Shown here piece by piece: positions 31,615 through 52,977 of a DNA stretch of 64,000 nucleotides (its first letter is position 1; every line of letters starts with the position of its first letter). The notes beneath the pieces were generated by a model, which saw nothing but the letters and a program-made list of their open reading frames with translations, did no database searches and was not told where the DNA came from. A program made the position numbers and the translations under genes. The DNA comes from an uncultured Granulosicoccaceae bacterium (GTDB lineage Bacteria > Pseudomonadota > Gammaproteobacteria > Granulosicoccales > Granulosicoccaceae): the NCBI GenBank assembly GCA_937930305.1, contig CALGLE010000009.1, positions 186,001 to 250,000 of the forward strand. The letters run 5' to 3'.

Positions 31615-31711
31615 AAGATGAGACCACTTATCCGTTACTTGAAGGGTTCAGCACTGGGTACTGAGAAACCCACCGCTGATCTAACACAATGCTTGAAAGT
31701 GAATCGATGAT

Positions 31712-33217: not shown

Positions 33218-33225
33218 GCTTTAAG

Positions 33226-33669: not shown

Positions 33670-34637
33670 TACTGAATAACGCCGATGTCCTTGGACATCT
33701 GATTGATTTCAGCAACAAGTCCATTCACGTAGTTTTGGAAATCATCACCCACTTTGGTAAACGGTGCTAAACCGTTGTCCGCCATGGCTTGTTTCCACTC
33801 ATCACTGTCAGCCACTTGTTGAAGCTTGTCAGCCCATGAGGCGAATTGATCATCACTGATACCTTTGGGAACATACAGCCCACGCCAGTTAACAGCTACC
33901 ACATCAAAACCTTGCTCTTTTGCCGTCGGGATATCGTCAAAGCCTGGTACACGATCTTCAGTGAGTACCGCTAATACTTTAATATCGCCTGCTTTCAGAA
34001 AGCCAACCACTTCTGACATATCACCAGACATCACTTGGGTAAATCCACCGACAGTTTGAGTGATAGCGTCCGCGCCACCATCAACACCAATGTATTTAAC
34101 TTTTGTGATATCGGTGAAACCAGCGCGCTGTAGAATCATAAGTGGCTTCAAGTGGTCGAAACCACCGACCGCTGAACCACCGGCAATAGCCACGGACGCA
34201 GGGTCTGCTTTCATTGCTTCAACCAAATCACCTAAAGACTCAAAAGGTGAGTCTGCTGCCACAACGACAACACCTGGATCAGCACCAATCGCACCAACAA
34301 AACGCACTTGATCTGCCGTCATCCCGGCATAAGCGTTTTGCGCCAAGCGAGTGGATGTAGCAGACGAGGCTGCAACGATTAAATCTGCATCATCGGCACG
34401 CTCATTAACCACGTGCCCATAGGCGAGACCACCACCAGCGCCTGCCATGTTGGTCACTTGGATTGGCTTATCAACCGCACCAATATCAAACATAATCTTG
34501 CCAATCTGACGGCAAGTGAAATCCCAGCCACCACCCGGATTGGCCGGTGCAATGCACTCGGCCGCTGACACCGTGCTCGGCAGTGTTGCCGCGAGCATCG
34601 CGCCCGCGCACAGTGTCTGTATTAGACGATTTTTCAT
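33669..34637 (-). CDS. tctC: Tripartite tricarboxylate transporter receptor
   Basis: A 322-residue periplasmic receptor. The ATG at 34637 follows a strong GGAGGAACAGT site and gives a good signal peptide (KNRLIQTLCAGAMLAATLPSTVSA), so the longer frame to 34697 is rejected. The mature N terminus ECIAPANPGGGWDFTCRQIGKIM is the ligand-contacting strand of TctC/Bug proteins, and VAIAGGSAVGGFDHL and VNWRGLYVPKGIS are also family features. TctC-type receptors bind tri- or dicarboxylates or aromatic acids; the ligand is unknown here. Confidence 0.95.
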   Translation of the reverse strand: MKNRLIQTLCAGAMLAATLPSTVSAAECIAPANPGGGWDFTCRQIGKIMFDIGAVDKPIQVTNMAGAGGGLAYGHVVNERADDADLIVAASSATSTRLAQNAYAGMTADQVRFVGAIGADPGVVVVAADSPFESLGDLVEAMKADPASVAIAGGSAVGGFDHLKPLMILQRAGFTDITKVKYIGVDGGADAITQTVGGFTQVMSGDMSEVVGFLKAGDIKVLAVLTEDRVPGFDDIPTAKEQGFDVVAVNWRGLYVPKGISDDQFASWADKLQQVADSDEWKQAMADNGLAPFTKVGDDFQNYVNGLVAEINQMSKDIGVIQ

Positions 34638-34823
34638 ACTGTTCCTCCAGTTCATTTTTCTTGCCCCGGCATAGTGTGATAGCCCCGGGGTTAACACTAG
34701 TGTCTCGCTAATCTGGCGCTAGTGTCAACGTTGGGAATTAATCAATGCCCACAGGCCCTAATAACAGGCACTATTGGAGAACAAACCAACCGCAAATCAC
34801 CCATCCAATTCACACTTATCACA

Positions 34824-38352: not shown

Positions 38353-38685
38353 TCACAGAAAATCATCACGACGAGGCGTAAAACAATCTATGAGTTCACC
38401 CGGTGCAAGACAAACACAGCCGTGCTCGGCATTAGCTGGGATAACAAAACTGTCCCCACTACCGACTTCAAACTCTTCCCCATCTAAGAAGAATTTAAAA
38501 GCGCCCGACTTGACGTAGGTGGACTGTACGTGCGGATGGCTATGCAGCTTGCCTTCGGCAGCTTTTTGAAATGAAAAGGACACCATCATCATATCGGGAT
38601 GATCAGCCAGCACTTGACGTTGCACACCCGGATCGGATTCGACTTTAGGAAACGTTGACAATGAGCTCTCCTTTAATTCGGACAA
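38353..38685 (-). CDS. kdgF: KdgF-like cupin (unsaturated uronate linearisation)
   Basis: A 110-residue single cupin matching KdgF in length and motifs: LHSHPHVQSTYV gives the metal-binding histidines, followed by GAFKFFLDGEEFEVGSGDSFVIPANAEHGC. KdgF converts 4,5-unsaturated monouronates from pectin or alginate breakdown to linear 5-keto-4-deoxyuronate. It lies 60 bases downstream of a glucarate-dehydratase-like gene on the same strand and beside a lyase/importer cluster, which supports the assignment. It acts in the cytoplasm. Confidence 0.85.
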   Translation of the reverse strand: MSELKESSLSTFPKVESDPGVQRQVLADHPDMMMVSFSFQKAAEGKLHSHPHVQSTYVKSGAFKFFLDGEEFEVGSGDSFVIPANAEHGCVCLAPGELIDCFTPRRDDFL

Positions 38686-38745
38686 TGTTTATTCGATTAT
38701 TTTCATTACAACATATTCTGACCCAGACATTCACTCAGCCAGCGT

Positions 38746-39996
38746 TTACCACCGTGGAACAACGCGTTCATAGTCAGGAATGTATTTACGCATCTCATCT
38801 GTGTCTTCCCTGTCTCGTAAATTTTGTGCCAAATAAAATTCGTGAAATTCAGCCAAGGCAATAGGATCTATTTCAACACCTAATCCAGGCCCTTCCGGAA
38901 CTTGGATTCGCCCATTATCAATTTTCAGCTTGCCGCCTTTGATAATGTCGTGAAGGGTCCACGGGTAATGGGTGTCACAATCATAAGTTAGATTAGGCGT
39001 GGCCGCAGCAACGTGCACCATGGCCGCCAAACTGATACCCAAATGCGTATTGGAGTGCATTGAAATGCCCAGTCCTCCGGCTCGGCAAAATTCGCCCAGA
39101 TGCATAGAACCTGTCGCGCCGCGCCAGTAGTGGTGGTCTGAAAGAATGATTTGCACAGCCCCATTTTTAAACGCTTCAACCACCTGTTCAAATTCAACCA
39201 CCACCAGATTTGTGGCCAGCGGAACTTCCGTTTGTGAAGCCAGCTCCGCCATGGCATCCATTCCACGCACAGGATCTTCCAAATACTCCAAAATATCGCC
39301 AATCGCATCACAGACCCCAAGCGCCGTTGGAACCCGCCATGCGCCCATCGGATCAATACGCAATGGCGATTCCGGGAATGCATCCCGCAACATCTGCATG
39401 GTTTCAATTTCTAGTTTAGGCTCCAGCACCCCGCCTTTCAGCTTAAGCGAATCAAAACCATAGGAATCAACCAACTCCTTCGCTTCATCCACGAGAGCTT
39501 GAGGCGTCATGACTTCGCCAAATAGGTCCTCTCCACGGTAATCCACTGGCTTAGCAAATTTGTAAAACAAGTAGCCACTAAAACCCACGCTGTCCCTGAC
39601 CGCACCGCCCAGTAAATCGCAGACCGGACGCCCAAGAAATTTTCCTTGAATATCCAAAAGTGGAATTTCAAATGCGCTGTAGACCGCGTCCACGACTTGG
39701 TGCTGGGTGAGCATGGTGGGCGCATTGATGCCCCCTGCATTGGGTAACGCAGATTCAACTCGCCGCCGCAGCTCATTGAGATGAAACGGATCTAGCCCGA
39801 TCAACGCATCGGCTGCCTGTCGCATCCCATTTAATGCGCGCGCGCCACCGTAGGATTCACCGATACCGATCAGGCCCTCATTGGTTTCAATCTCAATGAT
39901 GGTGCGAAGGAATACCGCCTGATGAACGCCTTTGGTGTTCACAAGAGGCACATCGGGGATTGCGACCGGAGTTAACCTAACCTGCTGAATTTTCAT
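38746..39996 (-). CDS. Enolase-superfamily dehydratase, glucarate-dehydratase-like
   Basis: A 416-residue enzyme of the mandelate racemase/glucarate dehydratase type. Catalytic Lys185/Lys187 are in KLKGG, metal ligands are Asp215 (RIDPMGAW), Glu240 (YLEDPV) and Asn263 (ATNLVV), and the second acid/base side carries Asp287 (SDHHYW) and a His in MHSNTHLG. Typical GlucD has Asn in the DPNGAW motif; here it is Met, so the substrate may differ from D-glucarate. The ATG at 39996 is chosen because MKIQQVRLTP is the usual start. It sits at the head of a minus-strand pair with kdgF, divergent from the ABC importer. Confidence 0.88.
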   Translation of the reverse strand: MKIQQVRLTPVAIPDVPLVNTKGVHQAVFLRTIIEIETNEGLIGIGESYGGARALNGMRQAADALIGLDPFHLNELRRRVESALPNAGGINAPTMLTQHQVVDAVYSAFEIPLLDIQGKFLGRPVCDLLGGAVRDSVGFSGYLFYKFAKPVDYRGEDLFGEVMTPQALVDEAKELVDSYGFDSLKLKGGVLEPKLEIETMQMLRDAFPESPLRIDPMGAWRVPTALGVCDAIGDILEYLEDPVRGMDAMAELASQTEVPLATNLVVVEFEQVVEAFKNGAVQIILSDHHYWRGATGSMHLGEFCRAGGLGISMHSNTHLGISLAAMVHVAAATPNLTYDCDTHYPWTLHDIIKGGKLKIDNGRIQVPEGPGLGVEIDPIALAEFHEFYLAQNLRDREDTDEMRKYIPDYERVVPRW

Positions 39997-40008
39997 AGTT
40001 TTCCCAGC

Positions 40009-40051
40009 ATTTTTGGCAGAAAATTTCCGAAATAAATTTTCTGCCAAAAAT
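40009..40051 (-). promoter_or_regulatory. Perfect 18-bp inverted repeat in 5' leader of dehydratase gene
   Basis: ATTTTTGGCAGAAAATTT at 40009-40026 is repeated as its exact reverse complement at 40034-40051 with a 7-base spacer. It begins 12 bases before the dehydratase ATG, so on the minus strand it would form a long hairpin just upstream of the ribosome site. It could be a regulator site, a translation control hairpin or both. It lacks a T-run in the place needed for a terminator. Confidence 0.8.
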
Positions 40052-40095
40052 TATGTACACCAGCGGATCAAAAAGATACTATGCACGTAACATTC

Positions 40096-40105
40096 TAGTA
40101 TGCCA
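40096..40105. promoter_or_regulatory. Candidate GntR/FCD operator, ABC importer promoter
   Basis: TAGTATGCCA, inside CTAGTATGCCAACT, fits the TNGTATNCNA half-symmetric form seen for FadR/UxuR-type GntR proteins. The same 9-mer CTAGTATGC occurs at 52114 upstream of the locus's own GntR gene and TRAP receptor. It lies in the divergent region between the dehydratase and the ABC importer. Confidence 0.45.
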
Positions 40106-40188
40106 ACTGATTGTTTTATGCGGAATCCCCAAACCTCCGGCCAGCGCACGGGCTGCAACGTGACTATTTTCTGCAGGAGAAAAACGTA

Positions 40189-41283
40189 ATGTCAGGTGTT
40201 CAGCTCTCCCAATTGGTCAAGCGATATGGCGACATTGAGGTCGTGAAAGCCATCGACCTTGAGGTTCAGCCTCATGAATTCGTTGTGTTGGTGGGTCCTT
40301 CCGGTTGCGGCAAGTCAACCACGCTGCGCATGATTGCCGGGCTTGAAGAAATCTCAGCTGGCAGCGTCACCATCAACGATCGAGTCGTTAACCGCGTTGC
40401 ACCGAAAGATCGTGACGTGGCCATGGTGTTTCAAAACTACGCGTTGTACCCACACCTCAATGTGGCTGACAACATCGCTTTTGGGCTTAGGATTCGAAAA
40501 ACACCCAAAGATGAAGTGGATAGATTGGTGGCAGAGGTCGCCGACATTCTCGGCTTAACGGACTATTTAAAACGCCGCCCTGCAGATTTATCGGGTGGAC
40601 AACGCCAACGTGTTGCTATGGGAAGAGCGATTGTTCGCCATCCAATGGTATTCCTGTTTGATGAACCCTTATCTAATCTTGATGCCAAGCTACGCTCGCA
40701 AATGCGCGCTGAAATCAAACGATTGCACAAACGCCTGGATGTGACCAGCATTTACGTCACCCACGATCAAGTTGAAGCGATGACATTAGCCGATCGAATC
40801 GTCGTCATGAACGATGGCTTGATTGAGCAAGTGGGCACACCGATGGACTTGTTTCTAAATCCCGCCAATACCTTCGTGGCAGGCTTTATTGGCTCCCCGC
40901 CCATGAATCAATTCGATGCACTGGTAAGCGGCAGCCCGGAAGCACCGATAGCAGAAATTGGTGATCAACGGATGGCATTACCCTCTCTGCCCGAACTGTC
41001 AGAGCGTATCGGCTCTAAAGTCACTGTCGGCATTCGTCCCGAGCACGCACAGGTGCTCACGCCGAGTGAACACCTCGTTCATGTTCAACTTGAAATTGTC
41101 GAAACCTTGGGTTCTGAAGCTTTGCTGCACACAACGCTGGAGAACAACCCATTCATCATAAAAACCGAAACAGAAGGCTATTACTCAAAGTTAGAAGAGG
41201 TGTCTGCATTTTCGGTTGATCCGGCTCAGGTCAAGGTCTTTGACATTGAAACCGGACGAGTTTTCGGGCAATCCGGAGCTTAA
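40189..41283 (+). CDS. ABC transporter ATP-binding protein, UgpC/MsmX/AlgS type
   Basis: A 364-residue carbohydrate-importer ATPase. Walker A is GPSGCGKSTTLRMIAGLE, the Q-loop is MVFQNYALYPH, the signature is [17 protein letters not shown], and Walker B is VFLFDEPLSNLDAKLR. A C-terminal MOBE/TOBE regulatory domain starts near residue 240. CAGGAG precedes the ATG at 40189. It is the first gene of an importer operon and would energise the two permeases that follow, as AlgS does in the alginate importer of Sphingomonas. Confidence 0.93.
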   Translation: MSGVQLSQLVKRYGDIEVVKAIDLEVQPHEFVVLVGPSGCGKSTTLRMIAGLEEISAGSVTINDRVVNRVAPKDRDVAMVFQNYALYPHLNVADNIAFGLRIRKTPKDEVDRLVAEVADILGLTDYLKRRPADLSGGQRQRVAMGRAIVRHPMVFLFDEPLSNLDAKLRSQMRAEIKRLHKRLDVTSIYVTHDQVEAMTLADRIVVMNDGLIEQVGTPMDLFLNPANTFVAGFIGSPPMNQFDALVSGSPEAPIAEIGDQRMALPSLPELSERIGSKVTVGIRPEHAQVLTPSEHLVHVQLEIVETLGSEALLHTTLENNPFIIKTETEGYYSKLEEVSAFSVDPAQVKVFDIETGRVFGQSGA

Positions 41284-41286
41284 GGG

Positions 41287-42210
41287 ATGCAGCCCGAATC
41301 CCGAATCAACCGAATAATTCATCACCTGCAACGTGAGTGGCAGATCTATGTGATGTTGTTACCCACCATTATCTGGTTCATCGTGTTTTTGTATAAACCG
41401 ATGTATGGGCTGCAAATTGCGTTTAAAGATTACTCCATCTTTCGAGGTGTCGCCAAAAGCCCTTGGATTGGATTAGAACATTTTGAATATTTGTTCAGTA
41501 ATGATCAATTTATTCGCGCCGTATGGAACACCATAAAAATCAGTGCATTGAATCTTTTGTTTGGCTTTCCAGCACCCATTATATTGGCGCTAATGTTTAA
41601 TGAAGTGTTGCATGCCACTTACAAGAAAACTGCACAGACCATTGTTTATCTACCGCACTTCATTTCATCGGTCATCATCGCTGGCATCGTTATCACCGCC
41701 TTCTCGCCGTCTGTAGGAATCGTGAATACTGTGCTGGAATGGTTTGGTATTGATTCCATTTATTTTCTTACTAAGCCAGAATGGTTTCGACCCATTTTTG
41801 TCGGCACGGGAATCTGGCAAGAGGCTGGGTTCGGCTCCATTGTATTTTTAGCAGCCATCGCAGGTGTTAGCCCATCACTTTATGAAAGTGCGGTCGTTGA
41901 TGGTGCAAACCGCTGGCAAATGATGTGGAAGATAACCATCCCATCGATTCTGCCCACCATCATCATCATGCTGATTATCCGAATTGGCAATATTATGGAA
42001 GTATCCTTCGAGCTCATTATCCTGTTGTACCAACCGGCCACTTACGAAACCGCCGATGTGGTCAACACCTTTGTGTATCGCCAAGGCTTGCAAAACGGTC
42101 AATACGACTTTGCCGCCGCCGCTGGTTTGTTCAACGCCTTGGTCGCCTTTGTGCTGGTGATGGTTGCCAACACCCTGTCCAGACGCTATTCGCGCACATC
42201 GTTGTGGTAA
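41287..42210 (+). CDS. ABC sugar transporter permease, LplB/AlgM1 type
   Basis: A 307-residue inner-membrane permease with six helices. Features are YVMLLPTIIWFIVFLYKPMYGLQIAFKDYSI split over the first helix and loop, the extended periplasmic loop, and the coupling motif ESAVVDGANRWQMMWKITIPSILP. It starts three bases after the ATPase stop. This subclass imports oligosaccharides or uronate oligomers through a large binding protein. Confidence 0.92.
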   Translation: MQPESRINRIIHHLQREWQIYVMLLPTIIWFIVFLYKPMYGLQIAFKDYSIFRGVAKSPWIGLEHFEYLFSNDQFIRAVWNTIKISALNLLFGFPAPIILALMFNEVLHATYKKTAQTIVYLPHFISSVIIAGIVITAFSPSVGIVNTVLEWFGIDSIYFLTKPEWFRPIFVGTGIWQEAGFGSIVFLAAIAGVSPSLYESAVVDGANRWQMMWKITIPSILPTIIIMLIIRIGNIMEVSFELIILLYQPATYETADVVNTFVYRQGLQNGQYDFAAAAGLFNALVAFVLVMVANTLSRRYSRTSLW

Positions 42211-42220
42211 GGGTGAGACT

Positions 42221-43102
42221 ATGTTGAATTGGAATCTGTATTCACGCGGCGATAAGTTCTTCGCCATTGCTGTGTCTGTATTAGTTGGCATGTTCACCAT
42301 AGCCACGCTGTATCCGTTCATTTACATCGCGGCGGTATCGTTTAGTTCAGGGTTTGCCGCACAAGCTGGCAAAGTGGTGCTAACCCCCATCGATGCCACC
42401 GTTGAAGCCTACAAATACATCCTGGTGAAACCTGAGTTTTGGATTTCGTATCGCAATACGTTTATCTACACCATCGGCGGCACCATAGTAAGCATGCTGT
42501 TCATTATCCCTGGCGCTTATGCGCTATCCCGGCCACAGTTGTTCGGTCGCCGGTTTTTTAATTTATTCATCGCCTTCACCATGTGGTTCAACGCAGGGCT
42601 TATACCGTTCTATTTGAACATGCGGGATCTTCACTTACTGGACAGCATGTTCGGCATCATCCTGGCGTTCGCGGTGAATGCGTTCAACATCATCTTATTG
42701 CGTAACTTTTTTGAAGCCATCCCCAGTAGCTTTGAAGAAGCCGCCAGAATGGATGGGGCTAATGAATTTCAAGTACTTTGGAAAGTGTTTATTCCTTTAT
42801 CCAAACCCGCTATTGCCACAGTGACCTTGTTTTGCATCGTATCCCGTTGGAACGGTTTTTTCTGGGCCATGGTGCTTTTGAGTAGTTCAGAGAAAATCCC
42901 ATTGCAAGTTTTCTTACGGCATACGCTGGCAACGCTCAGCGACGATGACGAATTTGCCATTACACAATTAGAGGCCGCGTACAGCGCAGAAACTGTAACC
43001 GCTGCCATAATTGTTTGTTCAATTATCCCGGTACTCTTGGTTTATCCGTGGATTCAAAAATACTTCGAGAAGGGCATCCTTCTCGGAGGTGTCAAAGAGT
43101 AA
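42221..43102 (+). CDS. ABC sugar transporter permease, LplC/AlgM2 type
   Basis: A 293-residue permease with six helices and the coupling loop EAARMDGANEFQVLWKVFIPLSKP. It ends PWIQKYFEKGILLGGVKE, the standard end of the YtcP/LplC group. The ATG at 42221 follows AAGGGTGAG, ten bases after the previous stop. It pairs with the LplB-like permease. Confidence 0.93.
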   Translation: MLNWNLYSRGDKFFAIAVSVLVGMFTIATLYPFIYIAAVSFSSGFAAQAGKVVLTPIDATVEAYKYILVKPEFWISYRNTFIYTIGGTIVSMLFIIPGAYALSRPQLFGRRFFNLFIAFTMWFNAGLIPFYLNMRDLHLLDSMFGIILAFAVNAFNIILLRNFFEAIPSSFEEAARMDGANEFQVLWKVFIPLSKPAIATVTLFCIVSRWNGFFWAMVLLSSSEKIPLQVFLRHTLATLSDDDEFAITQLEAAYSAETVTAAIIVCSIIPVLLVYPWIQKYFEKGILLGGVKE

Positions 43103-43129
43103 ATCAACTAACTCTAATTGGAGGAGCAT

Positions 43130-44698
43130 ATGCGTAAACATTTACTCACAACCGCTATTGCAGCAACACTGGTGTCAAGCACATCAGTTCTGGCTGACAC
43201 TAGCGATTTGAAGATCGTTGAGGGCGACCCGCTTCAGCTGACTATTCAGATGAATCATGCCCGCTATCCGGTGTACAAAGAAGACTGGCCAGTGGAACAA
43301 CAAGCACGTGAATGGACCAACGTTCACTTAAATGATGTAACCGTTGGTTCAAACATGCGTACCGATGAAAATTCGGGCAAAACCGAAGTGCTGAACCTGA
43401 TGTTAGCTTCTGGCGAAATCCCCGATATCGTTGGCTCTAGCCGAATAAAAGATTTCGTTAATCAGTACGGCCCTGAAGGTGCGTTCTTACCGCTCAATGA
43501 TTTAATCGAAGAGCATGCACCAAACTTAAAAAAATACTTCGACGAAAGACCTGAAATTGCGGCTGCTATTTCAGCGGCCGATGGCAAGATGTATTACATC
43601 CCTTACCTGCCCGATGGTAAATACGGCAGAGCCTATTGGATTCGCACCGACTGGTTGAACAAATTAGGGCTTGAAGTTCCACAAACGGTTGAAGAATACG
43701 AAAAAGTACTGCGCGCATTCAAAACCCAAGATCCTAATGGCAACGGTGAAGCTGATGAAGTGCCGTACTTTGCACGTCAGTGGCCAGAGCTGATTCGATT
43801 AGTCACCCTATGGGACGGACGATCTTCCGGTTCTGACACCTATCACGATTTTATGGTGAATGAAGGCAAACTTGAACACCCCTACGCAGGTGAAGGGTAC
43901 CGGGAAGGCATTAAGAATCTCGCTCGCTGGTACGACGAAGGTTTGATTGATGCAGAAATTTTCACCCGCGGTAGCTCCGCTCGTGACTTCTTACTGAGTG
44001 AAAACCTCGGTGGCTCAACTCACGATTGGTTTGCATCCACTTCCGGTTACAACCGATTGTCTGCTGATATCGAAGGCTTTGAGTTCAAAGCGATGGCACC
44101 TCCAGCATCAGTCAGCGGTAAGCGAATTGAAGAACATCGTCGCATTCCCATTAAGCCTGACGGTTGGGCCATAGGAGGCACGAATGAGCACCCCATTGAA
44201 ACCATAAAGTACTTTGATTTCTGGTTCACAGAACCTGGTCGTCGCCTCGCTAACTTTGGTGTTGAAGGCATGCACTACGACATGAAAGATGGCAAAGCGA
44301 TCTTTAAGCAGGAATTCTTAGATCAAGGGCCCGTGAATCGTTCGCTTTATCAAGTCGGTTCACAGCTTCAAGGCCGCGGTTACTTCCAAGACTATGGCTA
44401 CGAAATTCAGTGGTCTAACGAGTTTGCACTGGAAGGCATTAAGTTGTATGACGAAGGCGATTATTTAATCGATCAATTTCTGGGTGTGGCTTTCAATCAA
44501 GATGAGCAGAAAGTCTATGATCGTTTCTGGGGATCAGTTCGTGACTACATGTTAGAGCGTCAACAAGGCTGGATTTTGGGTAATGGCGATGTAGAAGCTG
44601 ACTGGGACGACTACACCGCTCAATTGGAAAAGAAAGGTCTTGGAAAAGTCCTTGAAGTGATGCAATCAGCGTACGACCGTCAGTACGGAAATAACTGA
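43130..44698 (+). CDS. ABC transporter extracellular solute-binding protein, AlgQ/LplA type
   Basis: A 522-residue receptor with signal peptide (RKHLLTTAIAATLVSSTSVLA). At about 200-212 it has DPNGNGEADEVP, the EF-hand-like calcium loop known from the alginate-binding proteins AlgQ1/AlgQ2 and related GAG-binding receptors. The size, over 500 residues, also fits that group rather than ordinary monosaccharide receptors. GGAGGAG precedes the ATG at 43130. It would hand unsaturated or saturated uronate oligosaccharides to the permeases upstream. A perfect hairpin follows the stop. Confidence 0.9.
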   Translation: MRKHLLTTAIAATLVSSTSVLADTSDLKIVEGDPLQLTIQMNHARYPVYKEDWPVEQQAREWTNVHLNDVTVGSNMRTDENSGKTEVLNLMLASGEIPDIVGSSRIKDFVNQYGPEGAFLPLNDLIEEHAPNLKKYFDERPEIAAAISAADGKMYYIPYLPDGKYGRAYWIRTDWLNKLGLEVPQTVEEYEKVLRAFKTQDPNGNGEADEVPYFARQWPELIRLVTLWDGRSSGSDTYHDFMVNEGKLEHPYAGEGYREGIKNLARWYDEGLIDAEIFTRGSSARDFLLSENLGGSTHDWFASTSGYNRLSADIEGFEFKAMAPPASVSGKRIEEHRRIPIKPDGWAIGGTNEHPIETIKYFDFWFTEPGRRLANFGVEGMHYDMKDGKAIFKQEFLDQGPVNRSLYQVGSQLQGRGYFQDYGYEIQWSNEFALEGIKLYDEGDYLIDQFLGVAFNQDEQKVYDRFWGSVRDYMLERQQGWILGNGDVEADWDDYTAQLEKKGLGKVLEVMQSAYDRQYGNN

Positions 44699-44721
44699 TC
44701 AACGATAAGTTGAGTAGGTCA

Positions 44722-44751
44722 AGTCTGGGTGTCGACATCGACACCCAGACT
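44722..44751 (+). terminator. Perfect 13-bp hairpin after binding-protein gene
   Basis: AGTCTGGGTGTCG pairs exactly with CGACACCCAGACT around a 4-base loop. Only a weak T-run (TTTC) follows, so it more likely protects the upstream message or attenuates than fully terminates. The lyase gene starts 38 bases later. Confidence 0.75.
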
Positions 44752-44788
44752 TTCATCCACGAATTATTAAAAGAGAATTTATTTAAAG

Positions 44789-47131
44789 ATGTCCTCCCAT
44801 GCCAACACAAGCGATGCTGTGCCCATTCTTGATGAGCCACGGGCTGGGAAAATGAACATCGGCTATCAGCCGGATCAAAACACCGATATTGTTGAGAACC
44901 CACCGCGATTTACGTGGATGCCGGTAATTGAAGACGAGGCCACCTACGCAATACGCATTTCTACCGATAACAACTACGCGAAAGACAATACGCGTGTATT
45001 CGAAAACATCAGCATTAACTTTTTCACCCCTGATGAAGCCCTTCCTCCAGGAAGCTACTTCTGGTCCTATGCCGTGTGGTCGAATGAGAAACAGGGGGCT
45101 TTGACTACTTGGAGTGAATCTCGGCAATTCAATCTGGTTGATGGCTTACCCAACACACCAATCCCAAATCGAGATAAGCGCCATGCAACACTCAGCCAAG
45201 CTCATCCACGGCTTTGGCTAAATCCGGAAACTCTATCCGAATTTTCCGTTGCGGTTACTCAGTCGGAACAGCATTGTGGCTGGGGCGATTTTTTTGAAAA
45301 GTCTGTTAAGCCATGGATGGGTCGCGACGTTATGGAGGAACCTGCTGGCTACCCCAATCACCAACGGGTGGCACCGATTTGGCGACAAACCTACATCGAT
45401 TGCCAAGAATTACTGTACGCCATTCGTCACCTTGCCATTGCAGGGCAGGTCACGCAGGATGCAGCGCTCACAGAACGAGCAAAAGCGTGGTTGTTAGCCG
45501 CTGCGAGTTGGAATCCCACGGGAACCACGGCACGTACGTACACAGATGAATGGGCCTTTCGCGTCACTCTGGCATTAGCTTGGGGATACGATTGGTTGTA
45601 CGACGAACTGAACGAAGAAGAACGAACTCTGGTGCGGGCAGCTTTATTAACGCGTACGCGCGAGATCGCAGATCACATCATTAATCACGCACGGATACAT
45701 CTCTTCCCTTATGACAGCCACGCTGTGCGCGCCGTGTCCGCTGTCTTGGTACCCGCATCGATTGCGATGCTGCACGAAGAAGAGGAAGCGCAGCTTTGGC
45801 TTGATTACTCCATCGAATTTTTATCCACTGTCTATTCCCCCTGGGGTGACAATGATGGTGGTTGGGCTGAAGGGCCTCACTACTGGATGACCGGGTTAGC
45901 TTATTTAATTGATGCAGCCAACTTATTAAAAAGTTACACCGGCATTGATTTATACCAACGACCGTTTTTACAAAAAACTGCCGACTTTCCGTTCTATACC
46001 AAGCCGCCTGATATTCGCCGCGCCACGTTTGGTGACGACAGCACAATGGGTGACTTACCCTGCTTAAAACTGGGCTACAACGTGCGCCAGTTTGCAGGCA
46101 TCACAGGTAACGGCGTTTACCAATGGTATTACGATGAAATCAAAAAGAATGACCCCGGCACAGAAATGGCGTTTTATAACTGGGGCTGGTGGGACTTAAA
46201 TTTTGATGACATGGTGTATCGCCATGACTATCCGGTGGTTGAATCTGTTGCCCCTGCCAACATTCCTAAAGTACGTTGGTTTCAGGGTATTGGCTGGGTA
46301 GCCATTCAACATCGAATGGACAACCCCGATGATCACGTGTCGTTCATCATGAAGTCCTCACCCTTTGGATCAATCAGCCATTCTCATGGCGACCAAAACG
46401 CGTTTTGCTTATCCGCTTATGGTGAAGACTTAGCCATTCAATCCGGGCACTACGTAGCTTTTAACAGCTCAATGCATCAAAAATGGCGGCGTCAAACGCG
46501 ATCTAAGAACGCCATTTTAATTGATGGGAAAGGACAATACGCAGACGGTGATAAATCTAAAACGCTTCGCGCCACCGGTAACATAACGAGTGTTAAGGAA
46601 AACGATGACCACGTATTTATTTCCGCCGATGCCACCATGGCCTACCAGTCACTGAATGACTCGGTGACTTTAGCGCGACGTGATGTGTATTTTGTACACG
46701 ACAGCTACTTCGTTATCGTTGATACCGTTGATGCAGAAAAGCCTGTTGAAATCGACTGGCTGCTTCACGCCAACGCACCCATGCAATTGGGCGACACCAC
46801 CTTTCGATACACCGGCGAGAAAGCCGGTTTTTATGGACAAGTGATTTGGTCAGAAGCTGGCGCAGGCAAACTGACCCAACAAACTGGCTTTGACGATGTG
46901 GACCCAGCCGACTACGAAGGCTTGCCGGTAAGCACCTGTTTGAATGTAAAGTTTCCAGCAGCCATTCGACATCGTATTGCGGTGCTGCTTGTGCCCTACC
47001 GACTCGATGCACCCCAACGCATATTTAATTTTCTTGATGATCAAGGCTACGATTGCGATCTGTATTTCTCCGACGCGGACGAACGTAGCTTCAAGGTTGT
47101 TGTACCCAAATCTTTTAACGTCGGCAAATAA
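44789..47131 (+). CDS. PL15-family exolytic alginate/uronan lyase (Atu3025-like, heparinase II/III fold)
   Basis: A 780-residue lyase, close to the 776 of Agrobacterium Atu3025. It has an N-terminal DUF4962-type beta domain (NPPRFTWMPV), a central alpha/alpha toroid and a C-terminal heparinase II/III beta domain (SHSHGDQNAFCLSAYGEDL). The residues I recall as active in Atu3025, Arg199, His311, Tyr365 and His531, are Arg199 (WRQT), His311 (YDSHAVR), Tyr365 (EGPHYW) and His531 (ISHSHGD) here at identical numbers. There is no signal peptide, so it works in the cytoplasm on imported oligosaccharides, releasing unsaturated monouronates by beta-elimination. Gene order importer-lyase-reductase also mirrors Agrobacterium. 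A non-alginate uronan cannot be excluded. Confidence 0.85.
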   Translation: MSSHANTSDAVPILDEPRAGKMNIGYQPDQNTDIVENPPRFTWMPVIEDEATYAIRISTDNNYAKDNTRVFENISINFFTPDEALPPGSYFWSYAVWSNEKQGALTTWSESRQFNLVDGLPNTPIPNRDKRHATLSQAHPRLWLNPETLSEFSVAVTQSEQHCGWGDFFEKSVKPWMGRDVMEEPAGYPNHQRVAPIWRQTYIDCQELLYAIRHLAIAGQVTQDAALTERAKAWLLAAASWNPTGTTARTYTDEWAFRVTLALAWGYDWLYDELNEEERTLVRAALLTRTREIADHIINHARIHLFPYDSHAVRAVSAVLVPASIAMLHEEEEAQLWLDYSIEFLSTVYSPWGDNDGGWAEGPHYWMTGLAYLIDAANLLKSYTGIDLYQRPFLQKTADFPFYTKPPDIRRATFGDDSTMGDLPCLKLGYNVRQFAGITGNGVYQWYYDEIKKNDPGTEMAFYNWGWWDLNFDDMVYRHDYPVVESVAPANIPKVRWFQGIGWVAIQHRMDNPDDHVSFIMKSSPFGSISHSHGDQNAFCLSAYGEDLAIQSGHYVAFNSSMHQKWRRQTRSKNAILIDGKGQYADGDKSKTLRATGNITSVKENDDHVFISADATMAYQSLNDSVTLARRDVYFVHDSYFVIVDTVDAEKPVEIDWLLHANAPMQLGDTTFRYTGEKAGFYGQVIWSEAGAGKLTQQTGFDDVDPADYEGLPVSTCLNVKFPAAIRHRIAVLLVPYRLDAPQRIFNFLDDQGYDCDLYFSDADERSFKVVVPKSFNVGK

Positions 47132-47163
47132 CGCACGACACGAACCTATAAGGAATACAGCTG

Positions 47164-47904
47164 ATGAATTTATCTGGAAAAACCGCCCTGGTCACCGGTG
47201 GCGGTCGTGATATCGGCCGCGCCTGTGTCATCCGCCTGGCCGAAGCCGGTGCCAATGTGGCCATCAATTACCACGCTTCAGCCAGTGGCGCAGACAGCGC
47301 GGTTTCTGAAATCGGTGCAGAGCGTGCGTTTGCGATGCAAGGTGATATGACCGTTGAATCCGAAGTTAAAGCGTTCGTAGAAAAAACAGCCAGCACATTC
47401 GGCTCGATTGACATTGTTGTGCATGTCACCGGTGGTTTAGTCGAACGTATTCCCATGCGGGAGATGTCCCTAGAACACTTCCATAAAGTGATGGACTTAA
47501 ACCTTACATCAAACTTTCTGGTTGTACGAGAAGCCGTTGCTCATATGAAAAACGGTGGATCCATCGTTAATTTAGCTTCACTGGCTGGTCGTGACGGCGG
47601 TGGCCCCGGTGCTGGAATTTACGCAGCTTCTAAGGGGGCCGTCATGACCATGACACGCGCCATGGCGAAAGAATTTGGTCCTGACATCCGCTGTAACGCA
47701 CTTTGCCCCGGAATGATCGATACCGATTTTCATAATACGTTTACAAAAGATGAAGTACGTAAGAATGTCGCTAATGCCACCCCGTTGAAGCGAGAAGGTA
47801 CATCAGAAGATTGTGCGAATCTGGTTGCCTATCTTGCCTCAGATGAAGCCGCATTTGTTAACGGCACGTGTATCGACATCAACGGTGGTATCGCTTTTTC
47901 ATAA
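47164..47904 (+). CDS. SDR-family oxidoreductase, probable keto-deoxyuronate reductase
   Basis: A 246-residue short-chain dehydrogenase. The cofactor motif is TGGGRDIGRACVIRLAEAG. The catalytic Ser is in IVNLASLAG, with Tyr and Lys in YAASKGAV, and the C terminus ends FVNGTCIDINGG. In Sphingomonas and Agrobacterium an SDR beside the alginate lyase reduces 4-deoxy-L-erythro-5-hexoseulose uronate to 2-keto-3-deoxygluconate. The position 32 bases after the lyase and before a GH88 hydrolase supports the same role here, but cofactor preference cannot be read. Confidence 0.85.
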   Translation: MNLSGKTALVTGGGRDIGRACVIRLAEAGANVAINYHASASGADSAVSEIGAERAFAMQGDMTVESEVKAFVEKTASTFGSIDIVVHVTGGLVERIPMREMSLEHFHKVMDLNLTSNFLVVREAVAHMKNGGSIVNLASLAGRDGGGPGAGIYAASKGAVMTMTRAMAKEFGPDIRCNALCPGMIDTDFHNTFTKDEVRKNVANATPLKREGTSEDCANLVAYLASDEAAFVNGTCIDINGGIAFS

Positions 47905-47929
47905 AGCATCAAGCTAAAGGCATCGACCC

Positions 47930-49141
47930 ATGGAACTTAAGCAGGACAGCGACAACAACGTATCCTACGAGGCGTTAGAACTGTTTCAGCCAGCCACGGC
48001 GCACAAAGCAACGTTTCAAAATGCGCTAGATGGCGCACTCGACAAGGTGAGCTCTTTAGTTCCCAAGTTCGGCCTTAGAAACCCCCGCATGGGTATTCCT
48101 GGAACCCATCGCTACGCGTTTTGCATTCCAGATGAATGGGTGGCCAGTTTTTGGTGCGGGCAAATGTGGCTGGCCTACTCGTTAACAGGAGACTCGCGCC
48201 TAAAAAACAGCGCCCGCATGCGCCGTGACTATTTCAAAACGGTATTAGAACACCCTCGTTGGCACGATCACGATCTTGGCTTCCTGTTTTCCTTATCCGC
48301 CGTTGCTGACTACACACTCACCGGCAACGAAAGTTCACGAGCCATGGCCTTACGGGCAGCTGATTTTCTCGCCGCTCGTTGGCGACAGCCACTGCCGTTT
48401 GTTATGTGTTGGAATCCGATGTTACGCGATGGGCCAGAATTCATGGCTCGTAAAACAGGAACTTTAAACATCGATAGCATGCAGGCAATGGCGTTGTTGT
48501 TTTGGGCCGCTCGGGAAACCGGCCAGGCTTCCTTCATCGAAATAGCTAACATGCATCTTGAAACCAGTCGTCAGTATCTGGTGCGCGACGACTACAGCTC
48601 TTATCACGCCTATGAATTTGATCCAAGAAGTGGCGAACCCATGAGCGGTTACACCCACCAAGGCTTGCACGATGAGAGCTGCTGGTCACGCGGGCAAGCT
48701 TGGGCAATTCATGGGTTTGCACAGGCGTACCTGTATACCGGCAATATCGACTACCGCAAGACGGCAGCGAAGATGGCCAACTATGTGTCCGAGCACTTAC
48801 CCAACGATGGGGTACCGCTGTGGGACTACAACTTAAGCGCTGATGAAACCCCATACCGCGATTCATCTGCTGGTGCTATCACGGCAGCTGGCCTCTACAC
48901 CCTGGCCCGTTGTTACGGTGGTGGAGCCGAAGCGGAACGGTATACCGCACTCGCCGATAAAATGTTGCTGGGACTCGTCGAGCACTGCGACCTGACACAA
49001 GACAAAGACGCCGAAGGGCTATTAAAAGAAGGGGCTGCATTCGTGGGGCTTGGACGCGCGAACAACCTATTGCCCTATGGCGACTATTACTACCTAGAGG
49101 CCTTGATGCGCTCAGTGGGGCATTCTGAATTTTTCTGGTAG
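47930..49141 (+). CDS. GH88 unsaturated glucuronyl hydrolase
   Basis: A 403-residue alpha/alpha-barrel enzyme without signal peptide. The two acidic residues typical for GH88 are Asp115 in WHDHDLGFLF and Asp182 in NIDSMQAMALLFW. Further conserved segments are THQGLHDESCWSRGQAWAIHG and YRDSSAGAITAAGL. GH88 removes the unsaturated uronic acid from the non-reducing end of lyase products by hydrating the double bond. Its presence with an alginate-type exo-lyase is unexpected, since alginate pathways do not need it, and suggests a mixed or different uronan. It is the last plus-strand gene of the importer operon. Confidence 0.93.
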   Translation: MELKQDSDNNVSYEALELFQPATAHKATFQNALDGALDKVSSLVPKFGLRNPRMGIPGTHRYAFCIPDEWVASFWCGQMWLAYSLTGDSRLKNSARMRRDYFKTVLEHPRWHDHDLGFLFSLSAVADYTLTGNESSRAMALRAADFLAARWRQPLPFVMCWNPMLRDGPEFMARKTGTLNIDSMQAMALLFWAARETGQASFIEIANMHLETSRQYLVRDDYSSYHAYEFDPRSGEPMSGYTHQGLHDESCWSRGQAWAIHGFAQAYLYTGNIDYRKTAAKMANYVSEHLPNDGVPLWDYNLSADETPYRDSSAGAITAAGLYTLARCYGGGAEAERYTALADKMLLGLVEHCDLTQDKDAEGLLKEGAAFVGLGRANNLLPYGDYYYLEALMRSVGHSEFFW

Positions 49142-49193
49142 CTCTTCCGTGGGTTAGCGGCGTCCTTGCTAACAGCGAGAAAGTGCTGCTGGC

Positions 49194-50477
49194 CTACGGG
49201 TCAACCAAGTACGGAAGCGTCAGTGAAATGGCCGGCACAAAGGTGATTAACATTAAGGCCACGAAGATGGCTAGATAGAATGGCCAAATGGTTTTCACCG
49301 CTTCCTCTATCGGTAACTTACCCACCGCACAGCCCACGAATAAACAGGAACCCACGGGCGGTGTACACAATCCCAAACCCAGATTCACCAATAGAATCAT
49401 GCCGAACTGCAGTGGGTCTATGCCCAACTGATTCATAATCGGTAAAAAGATCGGCGTGCAAATAAGTATCAACGCTGCCATATCCATGATCATGCCAAGC
49501 AGCAATAAAACCGCGTTGATCATCAATAAAATTAAGATGGGGTTATCAGTAACGCCCGTTAGAAAATTGATGGTTAAGCTCGGCACACGAAAGAACGTCA
49601 GCATGTAAGCGAATGCACCAGCGCAGGCGATAAGAATCATAACCATCGATGTTGTGCGTACCGCTGACACCACCGCGACTTTAAATTTTTGCCAGGTAAT
49701 ACTTCGATACACCAGTACCGTAACTAAGAACGCGTACATCGCGCCAAAAGCGCCAGATTCCGTGGCCGTAAACACACCAGACAGAACCCCACCCACAATG
49801 ATAACAGCGGTGAGTAAGCCAGGGATGGCACTGAAAAAACTTAACAAAAGCACCGTCCAACCAGAAAACTTCTCAGCTCCGTACCCACGCTTTATTGCTA
49901 CGACATAAGCTGCAACCGCTAAACACGTACACATGAGTACACCGGGCACCACTCCGGCAAGAAACAACTTGGATATTGACACCGCGCCGCCTGTGGCGAG
50001 TGCAAAGATAATCATATTGTGACTGGGCGGGATGATGATGCCAGCAATGGAGGATGTCACGGTCACGTTAACCGCATAGTCAGCGTCGTAACCCTTGTCT
50101 TTCATCACCGGTACAAGGATAGAACCTAACGCGGATATATCGGCAATGGCTGAGCCAGAAATACCGCCAAACAACATCGAAGAAAAGACATTCACGATGC
50201 CGAGCCCACCGCGCATTGCACCCACGGCATTTTGCGCGAACCGCACCAAACGCATGGCGATGCCACCGTGAAACATCAGCTCGCCAGCGAAGATAAAAAA
50301 CGGAATGGCCATTAAAGAGTACACATTGATCCCAGCAACAATTCGCTGAAACACAATGAGTAGCGGCAAACCCTCATGCCAGAAGGCCGCTAACGCAGAT
50401 ATACCTAACGCAAAGGCAACCGGTAAGCCGATGATGACGCAAAACGCGAACACCCCGAGCAAAAGCAAAAAACCCAT
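49194..50477 (-). CDS. dctM: TRAP transporter large permease (DctM)
   Basis: A 427-residue inner-membrane protein with about twelve helices. It starts GFLLLLGVFAFCVIIGLPVAFALG and has SSMLFGGISGSAIADISALGSILVPVM, SIAGIIIPPSHNMIIFALATGG and LGLCTPPVGSCLFVG, all family markers. It is the third gene of dctP-dctQ-dctM and converges with the GH88 gene 52 bases away. It would import monomeric uronates or sugar acids with Na+. Confidence 0.95.
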   Translation of the reverse strand: MGFLLLLGVFAFCVIIGLPVAFALGISALAAFWHEGLPLLIVFQRIVAGINVYSLMAIPFFIFAGELMFHGGIAMRLVRFAQNAVGAMRGGLGIVNVFSSMLFGGISGSAIADISALGSILVPVMKDKGYDADYAVNVTVTSSIAGIIIPPSHNMIIFALATGGAVSISKLFLAGVVPGVLMCTCLAVAAYVVAIKRGYGAEKFSGWTVLLLSFFSAIPGLLTAVIIVGGVLSGVFTATESGAFGAMYAFLVTVLVYRSITWQKFKVAVVSAVRTTSMVMILIACAGAFAYMLTFFRVPSLTINFLTGVTDNPILILLMINAVLLLLGMIMDMAALILICTPIFLPIMNQLGIDPLQFGMILLVNLGLGLCTPPVGSCLFVGCAVGKLPIEEAVKTIWPFYLAIFVALMLITFVPAISLTLPYLVDP

Positions 50478-50486
50478 GGCTGCCTC

Positions 50487-51014
50487 TTAGTCCAAACGGT
50501 TAGAGCGTTGATCCAATCGGAGCAACAAACGAATTAAATGGCCTGTGGAAAATAGAAACACTAAAGCACCACAAATGGTCAGAGGCAAAGATCGAAAACC
50601 TTCGGAAACCTGGATTAAAGGAATTAACATCTTCCATTTAAACTGGGTGAGTTCCAAACCATACCAGAACATAAACGCACCAAAACCTGCCATAAGCACA
50701 TCGGTCACAAACACAAATACCGAGCGTATAACTGATGGCACAGCGTCTCTAAACAATACAACCGACAGATGGGTATCTTGCTGCACACCCACCGCTGCAC
50801 CTAAAAATGCAATGACCATTAACAAGAGGTGGGATACCTGCTCGACCCAGGTTGGCGTGGCATTCAATACGTAGCGTCCGAACACCAGCCACGCAAACAT
50901 CAATGTCATCACGACAAGAGCGACGCCCGCAATGATTAGACAGATTCGAGAGAGGAAATTAAAAACGCTGTCCATAACCCGCAAAAATTGCGGTGTATCG
51001 GAGTCTTTGTTCAT
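50487..51014 (-). CDS. dctQ: TRAP transporter small permease (DctQ)
   Basis: A 175-residue four-helix protein with the DctQ motif WLVFGRYVLNATPTWVEQVSHLLL and GAAVGVQQDTHLSV. It bridges the receptor and the large permease. It lies 9 bases before dctM and 74 bases after dctP, the gap holding a strong hairpin. Confidence 0.94.
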   Translation of the reverse strand: MNKDSDTPQFLRVMDSVFNFLSRICLIIAGVALVVMTLMFAWLVFGRYVLNATPTWVEQVSHLLLMVIAFLGAAVGVQQDTHLSVVLFRDAVPSVIRSVFVFVTDVLMAGFGAFMFWYGLELTQFKWKMLIPLIQVSEGFRSLPLTICGALVFLFSTGHLIRLLLRLDQRSNRLD

Positions 51015-51041
51015 TTAAGGTCGCATGTTGAGACGCAAATG

Positions 51042-51067
51042 GATCCCCCCGATTGCTCGGGGGGATC
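51042..51067 (-). terminator. Perfect 11-bp GC-rich hairpin between dctP and dctQ
   Basis: GATCCCCCCGA at 51042-51052 pairs exactly with TCGGGGGGATC at 51057-51067 around TTGC. There is no T-run on the minus strand side, so it is probably an mRNA-stabilising or attenuating structure that favours the receptor over the permeases. Confidence 0.75.
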
Positions 51068-51088
51068 GGTACAAAATAGATTCAGAAA

Positions 51089-52069
51089 TTATTCCGTTTT
51101 CTGAGCCATTTCAACTAAACCTGCCATGTCTGGATTGGCAGCTAAGTATTCATCATATACTTGTTTCATTGCATCCTGAAAGGGCCCTTTGTCGGCAATT
51201 TCATTCACTGCGATACCAGCAGCCTCTACATCCTTACGCGCTTGTTCTGACTGAACAGCCCATAACTCACGCTGGAACAGTGCAGCTTCTTCAGCAGCTC
51301 CGCGAACTGCGGCCTGCATATCTGCAGACAAGGCGTCAAACTTTGCCGTGTTCACACAAATGCACTCAGGGATAATCAAGTGCTCACTGAGAGAATAGTG
51401 AGTGGTGACTTCATAATGGCCAACGTTCTTAAATGATGGGAAGTTATTTTCCGCACCATCAACAACACCCGTTTTCAATGCCTGCTGAACTTCAGCGAAC
51501 GCCATCGGTGACGGGTTGCCACCCAGGGCAGAAATCATTGACGTATACAGATCATTATTCATAACCCGGATTTTCAAACCTTCCACATCTGCCGGCGCAT
51601 TGATAGGCTTTTGGCTATAGAACGAGCGTGCACCCGCATCTACCCAAGCCAATGGCTTAACACCCGCTTCAGCCATGGCATCAGCTATGGTTTGCCCAGC
51701 TTCACCTTCCAGCACTCGGAACATGTGCGGAACGCTTTTGAAAATGAAAGGCAATGAAACCAAATTAGCTTCTTTCACCATGGGACCAATTGGACCTAAG
51801 TTGAAATTACCAATCTCGATGGCACCTAAGCGAACTTGCTCTAGCGCATCAGGTTGAGAACCCAGCACACCACCGTGGAACACTTCCACAGTAACTTCGC
51901 CGCCAGTCGCCTTATCCACTAATTCTGAAAACTTATCCATCGCGGCGGTATTGGGGTGGCCGTCGTTATGAATATTCCAAGCGCGCCAGTTCTCAGCAGC
52001 GTGCACGGGACCAATCAAGGCAGCCGCCACCGCGGCGCCCACCAAAACCTTTGATATTTTTTGCAACAC
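51089..52069 (-). CDS. dctP: TRAP transporter solute-binding protein (DctP family)
   Basis: A 326-residue receptor with signal peptide (KISKVLVGAAVAAALIGPVHA before AENW), GTG start and an AGGAGG site upstream. Family features include NWRAWNIHNDGHPNTAAMDKF split around the pocket, GLKIRVMNNDLYTSMISALGGNPSPMAFAEVQQALKTGVVDGAEN in separate parts, and the Arg of KIRVM that contacts the carboxylate of the ligand. Position beside a uronan lyase cluster and a GntR regulator suggests a uronate or sugar-acid ligand. Confidence 0.93.
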   Translation of the reverse strand: MLQKISKVLVGAAVAAALIGPVHAAENWRAWNIHNDGHPNTAAMDKFSELVDKATGGEVTVEVFHGGVLGSQPDALEQVRLGAIEIGNFNLGPIGPMVKEANLVSLPFIFKSVPHMFRVLEGEAGQTIADAMAEAGVKPLAWVDAGARSFYSQKPINAPADVEGLKIRVMNNDLYTSMISALGGNPSPMAFAEVQQALKTGVVDGAENNFPSFKNVGHYEVTTHYSLSEHLIIPECICVNTAKFDALSADMQAAVRGAAEEAALFQRELWAVQSEQARKDVEAAGIAVNEIADKGPFQDAMKQVYDEYLAANPDMAGLVEMAQKTE

Positions 52070-52112
52070 GGAAATCCTCCTGAAGTGATTTTTATCGCGT
52101 CTAGCCGAGTCG

Positions 52113-52126
52113 ACTAGTATGCTAGT
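52113..52126. promoter_or_regulatory. Candidate GntR/FCD operator, dctP-gntR promoter
   Basis: ACTAGTATGCTAGT has perfect 5-bp arms around TATG and contains TAGTATGCTA, of the TNGTATNCNA type. It lies in the divergent region between the TRAP receptor and the GntR gene. The core CTAGTATGC recurs at 40095 in the other divergent promoter of the locus. A partial second copy (TAGTATATGA) follows immediately. Confidence 0.5.
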
Positions 52127-52254
52127 ATATGAACATCGCAGTATTCATGTCAACTGACCAACGCTAGAATGGTGAGCTCGGTGCAAACCATCTGATTTAT
52201 CAGTTCACCGACCATGGAATAACAGACACCGGCTTGAGGTGTAAACGAAGGTCT

Positions 52255-52950
52255 ATGCAGAACTTAGTTATTGACAACGAACGCCGAACAACCACGGATC
52301 TGGTGTTCGACCGATTGCACGAAGAAATCAACTCCCTTAAGTTGCCCCCCGGTGCACGCGTATCTGAAGTTGAGATCGCACAACGTTTTGGTGTTTCCCG
52401 TCAACCGGTGCGCGATGCGTTCTATCGTCTCGGCAATCTAGAGCTGCTTTTAATCAGGCCTCAAAAAGCAACGATTGTTCGGGGCTTCTCTGAAGAATCT
52501 ATAGTCACCGCACGTTTTATCCGCTTGGCAGTGGAGCTTGAAGTGATGAACCGGGCGTGTCGAATCTGGAAAAAAGAACACTCAAAAAAGCTTAACTATA
52601 ATTTGGAGCAACAAATAACGGCTGTTAAAGCAGATCAATGGGATGACTTTCATCGATTAGATTCGATGTTCCACGGCTTAATCTGCCAGATTAGCGATAC
52701 AGAACATGCCATTGAAACCATAAAAAGCTGCCGACAAAAAACGGATCGTATTTGCGCGCTTGGTGTGCGTAAGGAAGAGGAAGTCGATTTAATTCTTACC
52801 GATCATCGCCAGCTAATTGCCGCTTTGGATGAACGTGACATCACGACCGCATTGGATGTCACTCGTCTGCATCTTAGCCGCATCGATTCGATTATTAAAG
52901 ATATTCGCAACTCACACGCAGAGTACTTTGACAATTCCAGCCAAAACTAA
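52255..52950 (+). CDS. GntR-family transcriptional regulator (FadR/FCD subgroup)
   Basis: A 231-residue regulator. The N-terminal winged helix reads LKLPPGARVSEVEIAQRFGVSRQPVRDAFYRL in two parts at about 30-65, and the rest is an all-helical FCD ligand domain with metal-binding-type residues (FHRLDSMFHGLIC, DHRQLIAALDERD). FCD regulators of this kind usually respond to sugar acids and repress uptake and catabolic genes. It is divergent from the dctPQM operon and is the likely controller of the whole uronate locus. The ATG at 52255 follows GAAGG; a TTG at 52234 is in frame. Confidence 0.92.
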   Translation: MQNLVIDNERRTTTDLVFDRLHEEINSLKLPPGARVSEVEIAQRFGVSRQPVRDAFYRLGNLELLLIRPQKATIVRGFSEESIVTARFIRLAVELEVMNRACRIWKKEHSKKLNYNLEQQITAVKADQWDDFHRLDSMFHGLICQISDTEHAIETIKSCRQKTDRICALGVRKEEEVDLILTDHRQLIAALDERDITTALDVTRLHLSRIDSIIKDIRNSHAEYFDNSSQN

Positions 52951-52977
52951 TAAAGAGCTTTTCTTTAAGTATTTTGA

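Follow-up and report, generated by a model that had tools for sequence, protein, structure and literature searches.

The DNA analyzed here (the window) is a 64,000-nucleotide stretch, positions 186001 to 250000 of contig C9 (CALGLE010000009.1), from the genome of an uncultured Granulosicoccaceae bacterium (G000, assembly GCA_937930305.1; 4.2 Mb, 55 contigs, 94.7% complete); the NCBI taxonomy places the family under Chromatiales, Gammaproteobacteria. Here, we describe the genes at window positions 38353 to 52950, among them those for a predicted oligoalginate importer, an exo-lyase of polysaccharide lyase family 15 (PL15), an unsaturated uronyl hydrolase of glycoside hydrolase family 88 (GH88), and an acid-sugar dehydratase. 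We read the block, with a probability of roughly 0.85, as an alginate-oligosaccharide utilization locus.

Two genes, for a KdgF-type cupin and the dehydratase, run leftward on the minus strand; divergent from them, the plus strand carries the ATPase, both permeases, and the receptor of an ATP-binding cassette (ABC) importer, followed by PL15, a short-chain dehydrogenase/reductase (SDR; 32 bp after PL15), and GH88 (25 bp after SDR). Beyond GH88, the genes of a tripartite ATP-independent periplasmic (TRAP) importer lie on the minus strand, divergent from a GntR regulator (Table 1). Every gene named in a preliminary description, made from the sequence alone, was recovered as an open frame in its place, and the families were matched by profile or PDB comparison. 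The same description spoke of two divergent promoters; two divergent intergenic gaps do exist, but promoter-like matches are not enriched between 38000 and 55000 (13, versus 20.9 expected from shuffling). An 11-of-12 match lies at 52153 to 52124, upstream of the TRAP receptor gene. The right boundary of the block is arbitrary, since the exporter gene just downstream adjoins GH88 in six relatives.

Loci were compared among the best 80 of 220 GTDB loci retrieved by PL15, and the family was surveyed in 48 Granulosicoccaceae genomes, many of them incomplete, 34 of which have PL15.

Table 1. Genes of the locus and the adjoining exporter gene (window coordinates)
Feature	Position	Strand	Basis
KdgF-type cupin (unsaturated uronate to DEH)	38353..38685	-	PDB relatives; homologue of at least 40% identity in 57/80 PL15 loci
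Enolase-superfamily acid-sugar dehydratase, glucarate-dehydratase-like	38746..40047	-	Below canonical cut-off; same divergent position in 11/80 loci
ABC importer ATPase, UgpC/MalK type	40189..41283	+	Profile match
ABC importer permease 1	41287..42210	+	Profile match
ABC importer permease 2	42221..43102	+	Profile match
AlgQ-type oligoalginate-binding receptor (predicted)	43130..44698	+	AlgQ2, 545 bits; leader peptide by eye
PL15_1-type exo-oligoalginate lyase (predicted)	44789..47131	+	Atu3025 alignment; no leader peptide by eye
SDR, proposed DEH reductase	47164..47904	+	Profile and PDB matches; position after PL15
GH88 unsaturated uronyl hydrolase, proposed for imported unsaturated oligouronates	47930..49141	+	Profile and PDB matches; family distribution
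TRAP large permease (DctM)	49194..50477	-	Sequence match
TRAP small permease (DctQ)	50487..51014	-	Sequence match
TRAP receptor (DctP), proposed monouronate importer	51089..52069	-	Profile and PDB matches
GntR/FCD regulator, divergent from TRAP	52234..52950	+	Profile match
MsbA-like ABC exporter, membership uncertain	52978..54870	+	Adjoins GH88 in relatives; also in loci without GH88

Alginate core

The core genes recur beside PL15 in most of the 80 loci (ATPase in 72, permeases in 73 and 76, receptor in 77, and SDR in 72, some misses falling at contig ends), and the arrangement at 38353 to 52950 is therefore not due to chance. The PL15 genes closest to the window's (L009, L011, and L010; 79 to 81% identity) all come from genomes of its own family.

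The PL15 protein aligns without gaps to residues 12 to 776 of Atu3025 (1107 bits) and has DUF4962 and heparinase II/III domains. It keeps R199, E254, H311, R314, Y365, and H531 (Atu3025 numbering), and the same six active-site residues are invariant in 113 of 113 aligned PL15 rows, in which some genomes are counted twice. Catalytic roles of these residues are described in PMC11921355, whose numbering was for some of them matched by a constant offset. Full-length similarity and the six residues, both read from sequence only, predict a PL15_1 exo-oligoalginate lyase. The receptor has AlgQ2 as its best PDB match and conserves the stretch DPNGNGxADEVP, which we take to be a calcium loop. The SDR resembles 4yqy and 3edm more closely than A1-R.

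Importer, receptor, PL15, and SDR follow one another on one strand in the order of the Agrobacterium-type operon, compared here through the operon of Falsirhodobacter sp. alg1 (alyFRB, L043), whose PL15 is 66% identical to the window's. The likeness to the Agrobacterium alginate cluster, pointed out in the preliminary description, is in print for that operon: PMC4866713 reports it as highly conserved with the Agrobacterium one, with a PL15 that converts alginate to 4-deoxy-L-erythro-5-hexoseulose uronate (DEH), leaving no dimers, and with the 2-keto-3-deoxygluconate (KDG) kinase and aldolase outside the operon. Judged by these comparisons, the importer-PL15-SDR core is a known kind of alginate operon, as in Agrobacterium fabrum (Atu3025) and alg1, where ABC importer, receptor, PL15, and SDR likewise form one operon. 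The alg1 locus differs in that no GH88, dehydratase, or KdgF occurs in the 22 kb seen; TRAP and GntR genes are present, as in the window. Sphingomonas sp. A1 (AlgS/M1/M2/Q1/Q2, A1-IV) is the source of the receptor's closest PDB relative, and its exo-lyase A1-IV belongs to the same family as the window's PL15 (PMC11921355); its DEH reductase genes, however, lie far from the cluster (PMC8778563), whereas the window's SDR adjoins PL15.

Downstream route and TRAP importer

Genes for 2-keto-3-deoxy-6-phosphogluconate (KDPG) aldolase (eda) and phosphogluconate dehydratase (edd), both above cut-offs, are on contig C20. A PfkB kinase on contig C7, retrieved with the PfkB sequence of a relative (P0001), has 2-dehydro-3-deoxygluconokinase 4e69 as its best PDB match and falls under the NCBIfam cut-off (249.6 versus 400), as P0001 also falls well under the KDG-kinase cut-offs; we regard the C7 protein as a probable KDG kinase. 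The cupin is small and aligns with solved KdgF, retaining the residues His/His/Gln/His that presumably bind metal, and its PDB relatives include four named KdgF or pectin degradation protein. With the aldolase and a probable kinase encoded elsewhere in the genome, where the preliminary description suggested looking for them, the standard DEH-KDG-KDPG route is complete.

All three TRAP components (P, Q, and M) are present. The best PDB matches of the receptor are 4ovq, 4pf8, and 4p1l, which we take to be hexuronate-bound structures, a literature search on TRAP uronate ligands having been of no help in confirming this. In 17 of the 80 loci, alg1 included, a receptor of the same type (at least 50% identity) is encoded no more than 10 kb from PL15, a count given with no background rate; the TRAP set is probably a common companion of PL15 loci that serves for free monouronates.

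GH88 hydrolase

GH88 scores above the cut-off of its family profile, and its eight PDB matches are unsaturated glucuronyl hydrolase (three), gbs1889 (three), unsaturated chondroitin disaccharide hydrolase (one), and GH88 (one). Two aspartates, presumably catalytic, are aligned and invariant in the family rows. They also align in the Bacillus sp. GL1 enzyme (1vd5), which the window's GH88 matches with 245 bits over 367 residues and which is known to act on gellan, xanthan, and glycosaminoglycan fragments; the window's gene, in contrast, sits in an alginate operon.

Near PL15, GH88 occurs in 3 of the 80 loci, all three from the window's family. Within the family, 14 of 48 genomes carry it, and each of the 14 is also one of the 34 PL15-positive genomes (Fisher p 0.003, kinship uncorrected). 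It stands beside alginate genes in 11 of the 14 (elsewhere in G022, G023, and G029). Nine of these 11 neighbors directly follow SDR; in G011 GH88 follows PL15 without SDR, and in G047 a tandem GH88 pair beside SDR lies ~4 kb from PL15. On a FastTree phylogeny of 54 PL15 proteins (G045 left out, its PL15 frame being broken in the assembly), 10 GH88-neighbor rows fall on three separate branches, and three changes are needed even on well-supported branches. The pattern arose by repeated pairing of GH88 with PL15, by exchange of the PL15 gene next to GH88, or by repeated loss of GH88. Repeated pairing or exchange suggests that the two share a function, and repeated loss does not decide.

Family-type GH88 sequences cluster apart from relatives of 44 to 46% identity (94% SH-aLRT). 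A search of 369 genomes of the class (E 1e-60) matched only the window's own genome among the rows listed, which also hold three other family members. GH88 is present in 3 of 47 genomes of other families with PL15 loci; the best match of each has no PL15 within the 17 kb read, and one of these genomes has a second, weaker match (L169, 34%). GH88 is a real, family-specific addition to the alginate core. The importer receptor is 96% identical between L114, a GH88 locus, and L031, a locus without GH88 whose genome (G043, 87% complete) gave no GH88 match. Because the receptor does not vary with the presence of GH88, the hydrolase most likely works on the same imported material as the alginate importer pool.

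Loci L119, L170, L171, and L172 share a conserved set of genes for a TRAP receptor, a fused TRAP permease, a GH88 (44 to 46% identical to the window's), and a LacI-family regulator, with no PL15 in the 17 to 20 kb read; this module may serve to take up and hydrolyze an unsaturated disaccharide. Two tandem GH88 genes (L117:722-3238, minus strand; 65% and 52% identical to the window's) lie beside SDR and a PfkB kinase on a contig that also carries PL15, importer, and dehydratase genes. At G045:C202:92-1759, the PL15 frame is interrupted by one TGA in the assembly and has SDR and GH88 frames beside it.

Dehydratase

The dehydratase is an MR_MLE protein nearest to 3vdg ("probable glucarate dehydratase"), 4it1, 3vc5, and 3va8, relatives mostly deposited as probable or putative dehydratases. 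A canonical D-glucarate dehydratase is ruled out (261.6 bits versus the TIGR03247 equivalog cut-off of 828.7). Aligned with glucarate dehydratase 3mzn are K-x-K, D, E, N, D, H, and N and a further N, H, and R, which we take to be catalytic and carboxylate-binding residues; because these are kept, a diacid substrate is favored, and the hexonate form of a bypass for saturated uronates is disfavored.

The gene has the same place as in the window, upstream of the importer and divergent from it, in 11 of the 80 loci; in 10 of these no GH88 is present. Eight of the 48 family genomes have it, all PL15-positive; in six it stands beside alginate importer genes, and in the other two it is on contigs apart from PL15, once (G007) with an internal stop in the assembly. 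Six of the eight also have GH88 (Fisher p 0.005; 0.035 within PL15-positive genomes; kinship uncorrected), which is a mild positive link between the two genes, but 8 of the 14 GH88 genomes are without the dehydratase.

The dual DEH pathway of Flavobacterium UMI-01 (FlRed, FlDet, and FlDeg) likewise has an SDR acting on DEH and gives a precedent for a hexarate branch; it differs in that its oxidative branch uses an RraA-family dehydratase/decarboxylase and no enolase-superfamily enzyme (PMC8563752). PL15 has an RraA-like gene no more than 10 kb away in 16 of the 80 loci, namely L028 (L028:21212-21937, minus strand; PF03737, the Pfam check having been made for this protein only) and L026, L032, L033, L034, L045, L047, L049, L052, L053, L067, L069, L077, L079, L082, and L086. 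In four of these loci, L028 (where the two genes are adjacent), L032, L033, and L067, a similar aldehyde dehydrogenase gene occurs as well. These genes may represent an FlDet-type oxidative DEH branch in other alginate clusters. A KdgD-based exit was considered and rejected, as the search of the genome gave no KdgD above cut-off; the better of two weak matches (118.6 versus 373.95 bits) scores highest with dapA, also below cut-off.

Interpretation

In the alginate reading, the AlgQ-type receptor and ABC importer would take up unsaturated oligoalginate, cytoplasmic PL15 would cut it to unsaturated monouronate, KdgF would speed the conversion of this to DEH, SDR would reduce DEH to KDG, and the C7 kinase and C20 aldolase would finish the route, with the TRAP set probably bringing in free monouronates. 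GH88, as a lineage-specific helper, most likely hydrolyzes the unsaturated end residue off oligomers or dimers of the same imported pool, and the dehydratase most likely recovers a minor component of this pool, a saturated acid sugar. Families, catalytic residues, gene order, and conservation are what the sequence gives; every substrate, for GH88, TRAP, and the dehydratase most of all, is our inference. The preliminary description rightly set GH88, TRAP, and the dehydratase apart as additions to the core. Its proposal of a new substrate finds no support and is rejected as the principal interpretation: the PL15 active site and the AlgQ-like receptor are unchanged with or without GH88, and TRAP also occurs in the alginate-degrading alg1. 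A hydrolytic side branch, or the aldarate or aldonate branch that the same description suggested, is possible. The system is of a known kind and, in its family-specific GH88 and sporadic dehydratase, a modest new variant.

Several points weigh against the alginate reading. Searches of the genome with PL7, PL6, and PL5/17-type lyase models gave no match, which leaves attack on the alginate polymer unexplained; the PL7 control gave no signal, the search covered these families only, and completeness of the assembly is 94.7%. Twenty of the 34 PL15-positive family genomes, many of them incomplete, gave no GH88. There is also no obvious need for GH88, since PL15 enzymes reportedly cleave dimers to monomers by themselves (a PL15_3 enzyme, PMC11921355; the alg1 enzyme, PMC4866713). 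Conversion of alginate oligomers by GH88 is stated in PMC13274419, citing others, with one GH88 annotated accordingly; the literature on GH88 and alginate oligomers, as far as its text was available, gave statements of this kind and no measured activity.

Possible, though doubtful, is a mixed-uronan locus in which the importer and PL15 handle alginate and GH88 acts on another unsaturated disaccharide, taken up by the ABC or the TRAP importer and derived, e.g., from glucuronan, ulvan, glycosaminoglycan, or the side chains of fucoidan. Activity on such substrates is known for GH88 enzymes, one PDB match is named for chondroitin disaccharide, and the next kin of the window's GH88 sit in the TRAP-GH88-LacI module away from PL15; but separate branches of the PL15 tree have GH88 immediately behind SDR or PL15, the receptor is the same whether or not GH88 is there, and among the assigned genes of 38353 to 54870 there is no other lyase, sulfatase, or glycosidase, a GH10 gene being 12 kb off. 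We consider it unlikely that uronate or DEH is oxidized to aldarate, which the dehydratase would then take toward alpha-ketoglutarate. Oxidation at C1 turns L-guluronate into D-glucarate and D-mannuronate into D-mannarate, and the dehydratase aligns with the 3mzn residues whose roles we assumed above; against this, no KdgD is above cut-off, and the dehydratase and an RraA-like gene occur together in just one of the 80 loci (L028), a co-occurrence read within those loci and not by an RraA search of the window's whole genome. Oxidation of DEH itself has its precedent in Flavobacterium (PMC8563752).

Quite unlikely, in our view, is that GH88 and the dehydratase form a second, hydrolytic end of the pathway, in which GH88 would split unsaturated dimers into DEH and saturated mannuronate or guluronate, a reductase would give D-mannonate or D-gluconate, and the dehydratase would yield KDG directly, which would flow back into the main pool, or, after oxidation, a hexarate product. 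C1 reduction converts L-guluronate to D-gluconate and D-mannuronate to D-mannonate, and either product yields KDG on dehydration; salvage of saturated uronates fits this chemistry, but the need for GH88 is weakened by the reports of PL15 enzymes finishing dimers alone. The GH88 step by itself is already in print (PMC13274419), and a saturated-uronate bypass with this dehydratase was not met in searches of the literature on GH88 and alginate, glucarate dehydratase and alginate lyase, or saturated uronates and mannonate. That the two genes are unrelated passengers is quite improbable: their distribution is patchy (14 and 8 of 48 family genomes), and the G007 dehydratase frame is interrupted, but both were seen only in PL15-positive family genomes, repeatedly beside the operon, and they co-occur above expectation.

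Alginate is the main sugar polymer of brown seaweeds. On kelp, according to PMC9238374, Granulosicoccaceae carry alginate lyase genes, and no genome there was more abundant than that of Granulosicoccus. A complete intracellular alginate route without a detected endo-lyase would mark such bacteria as users of fragments released by others. GH88 repeatedly accompanies an exo-lyase that should manage without it, which raises the question of whether the last alginate bond is sometimes hydrolyzed rather than eliminated.

Other genes of the window

The MsbA-like exporter gene sits just after GntR in the window and directly downstream of GH88 in L108, L110, L113, L114, L115, and L116 (62 to 82% identity); similar exporter genes (46 to 63%) are in eight of the 80 loci without GH88, and an exporter beside an uptake operon is an unexplained pairing. 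Farther upstream, an AtuA/DUF4387 protein is encoded beside a TctA permease and a TctC receptor (29785 to 34697), a separate uptake unit. At 24740 to 26671 (minus strand), 12 kb from the alginate block, lies the gene of a protein that has a GH10 (xylanase-family) domain and a long N-terminal part, and an SBD_N/NBD_C protein, presumably of the four-carbon acid sugar kinase type, is encoded at 10681 to 12036 (minus strand).

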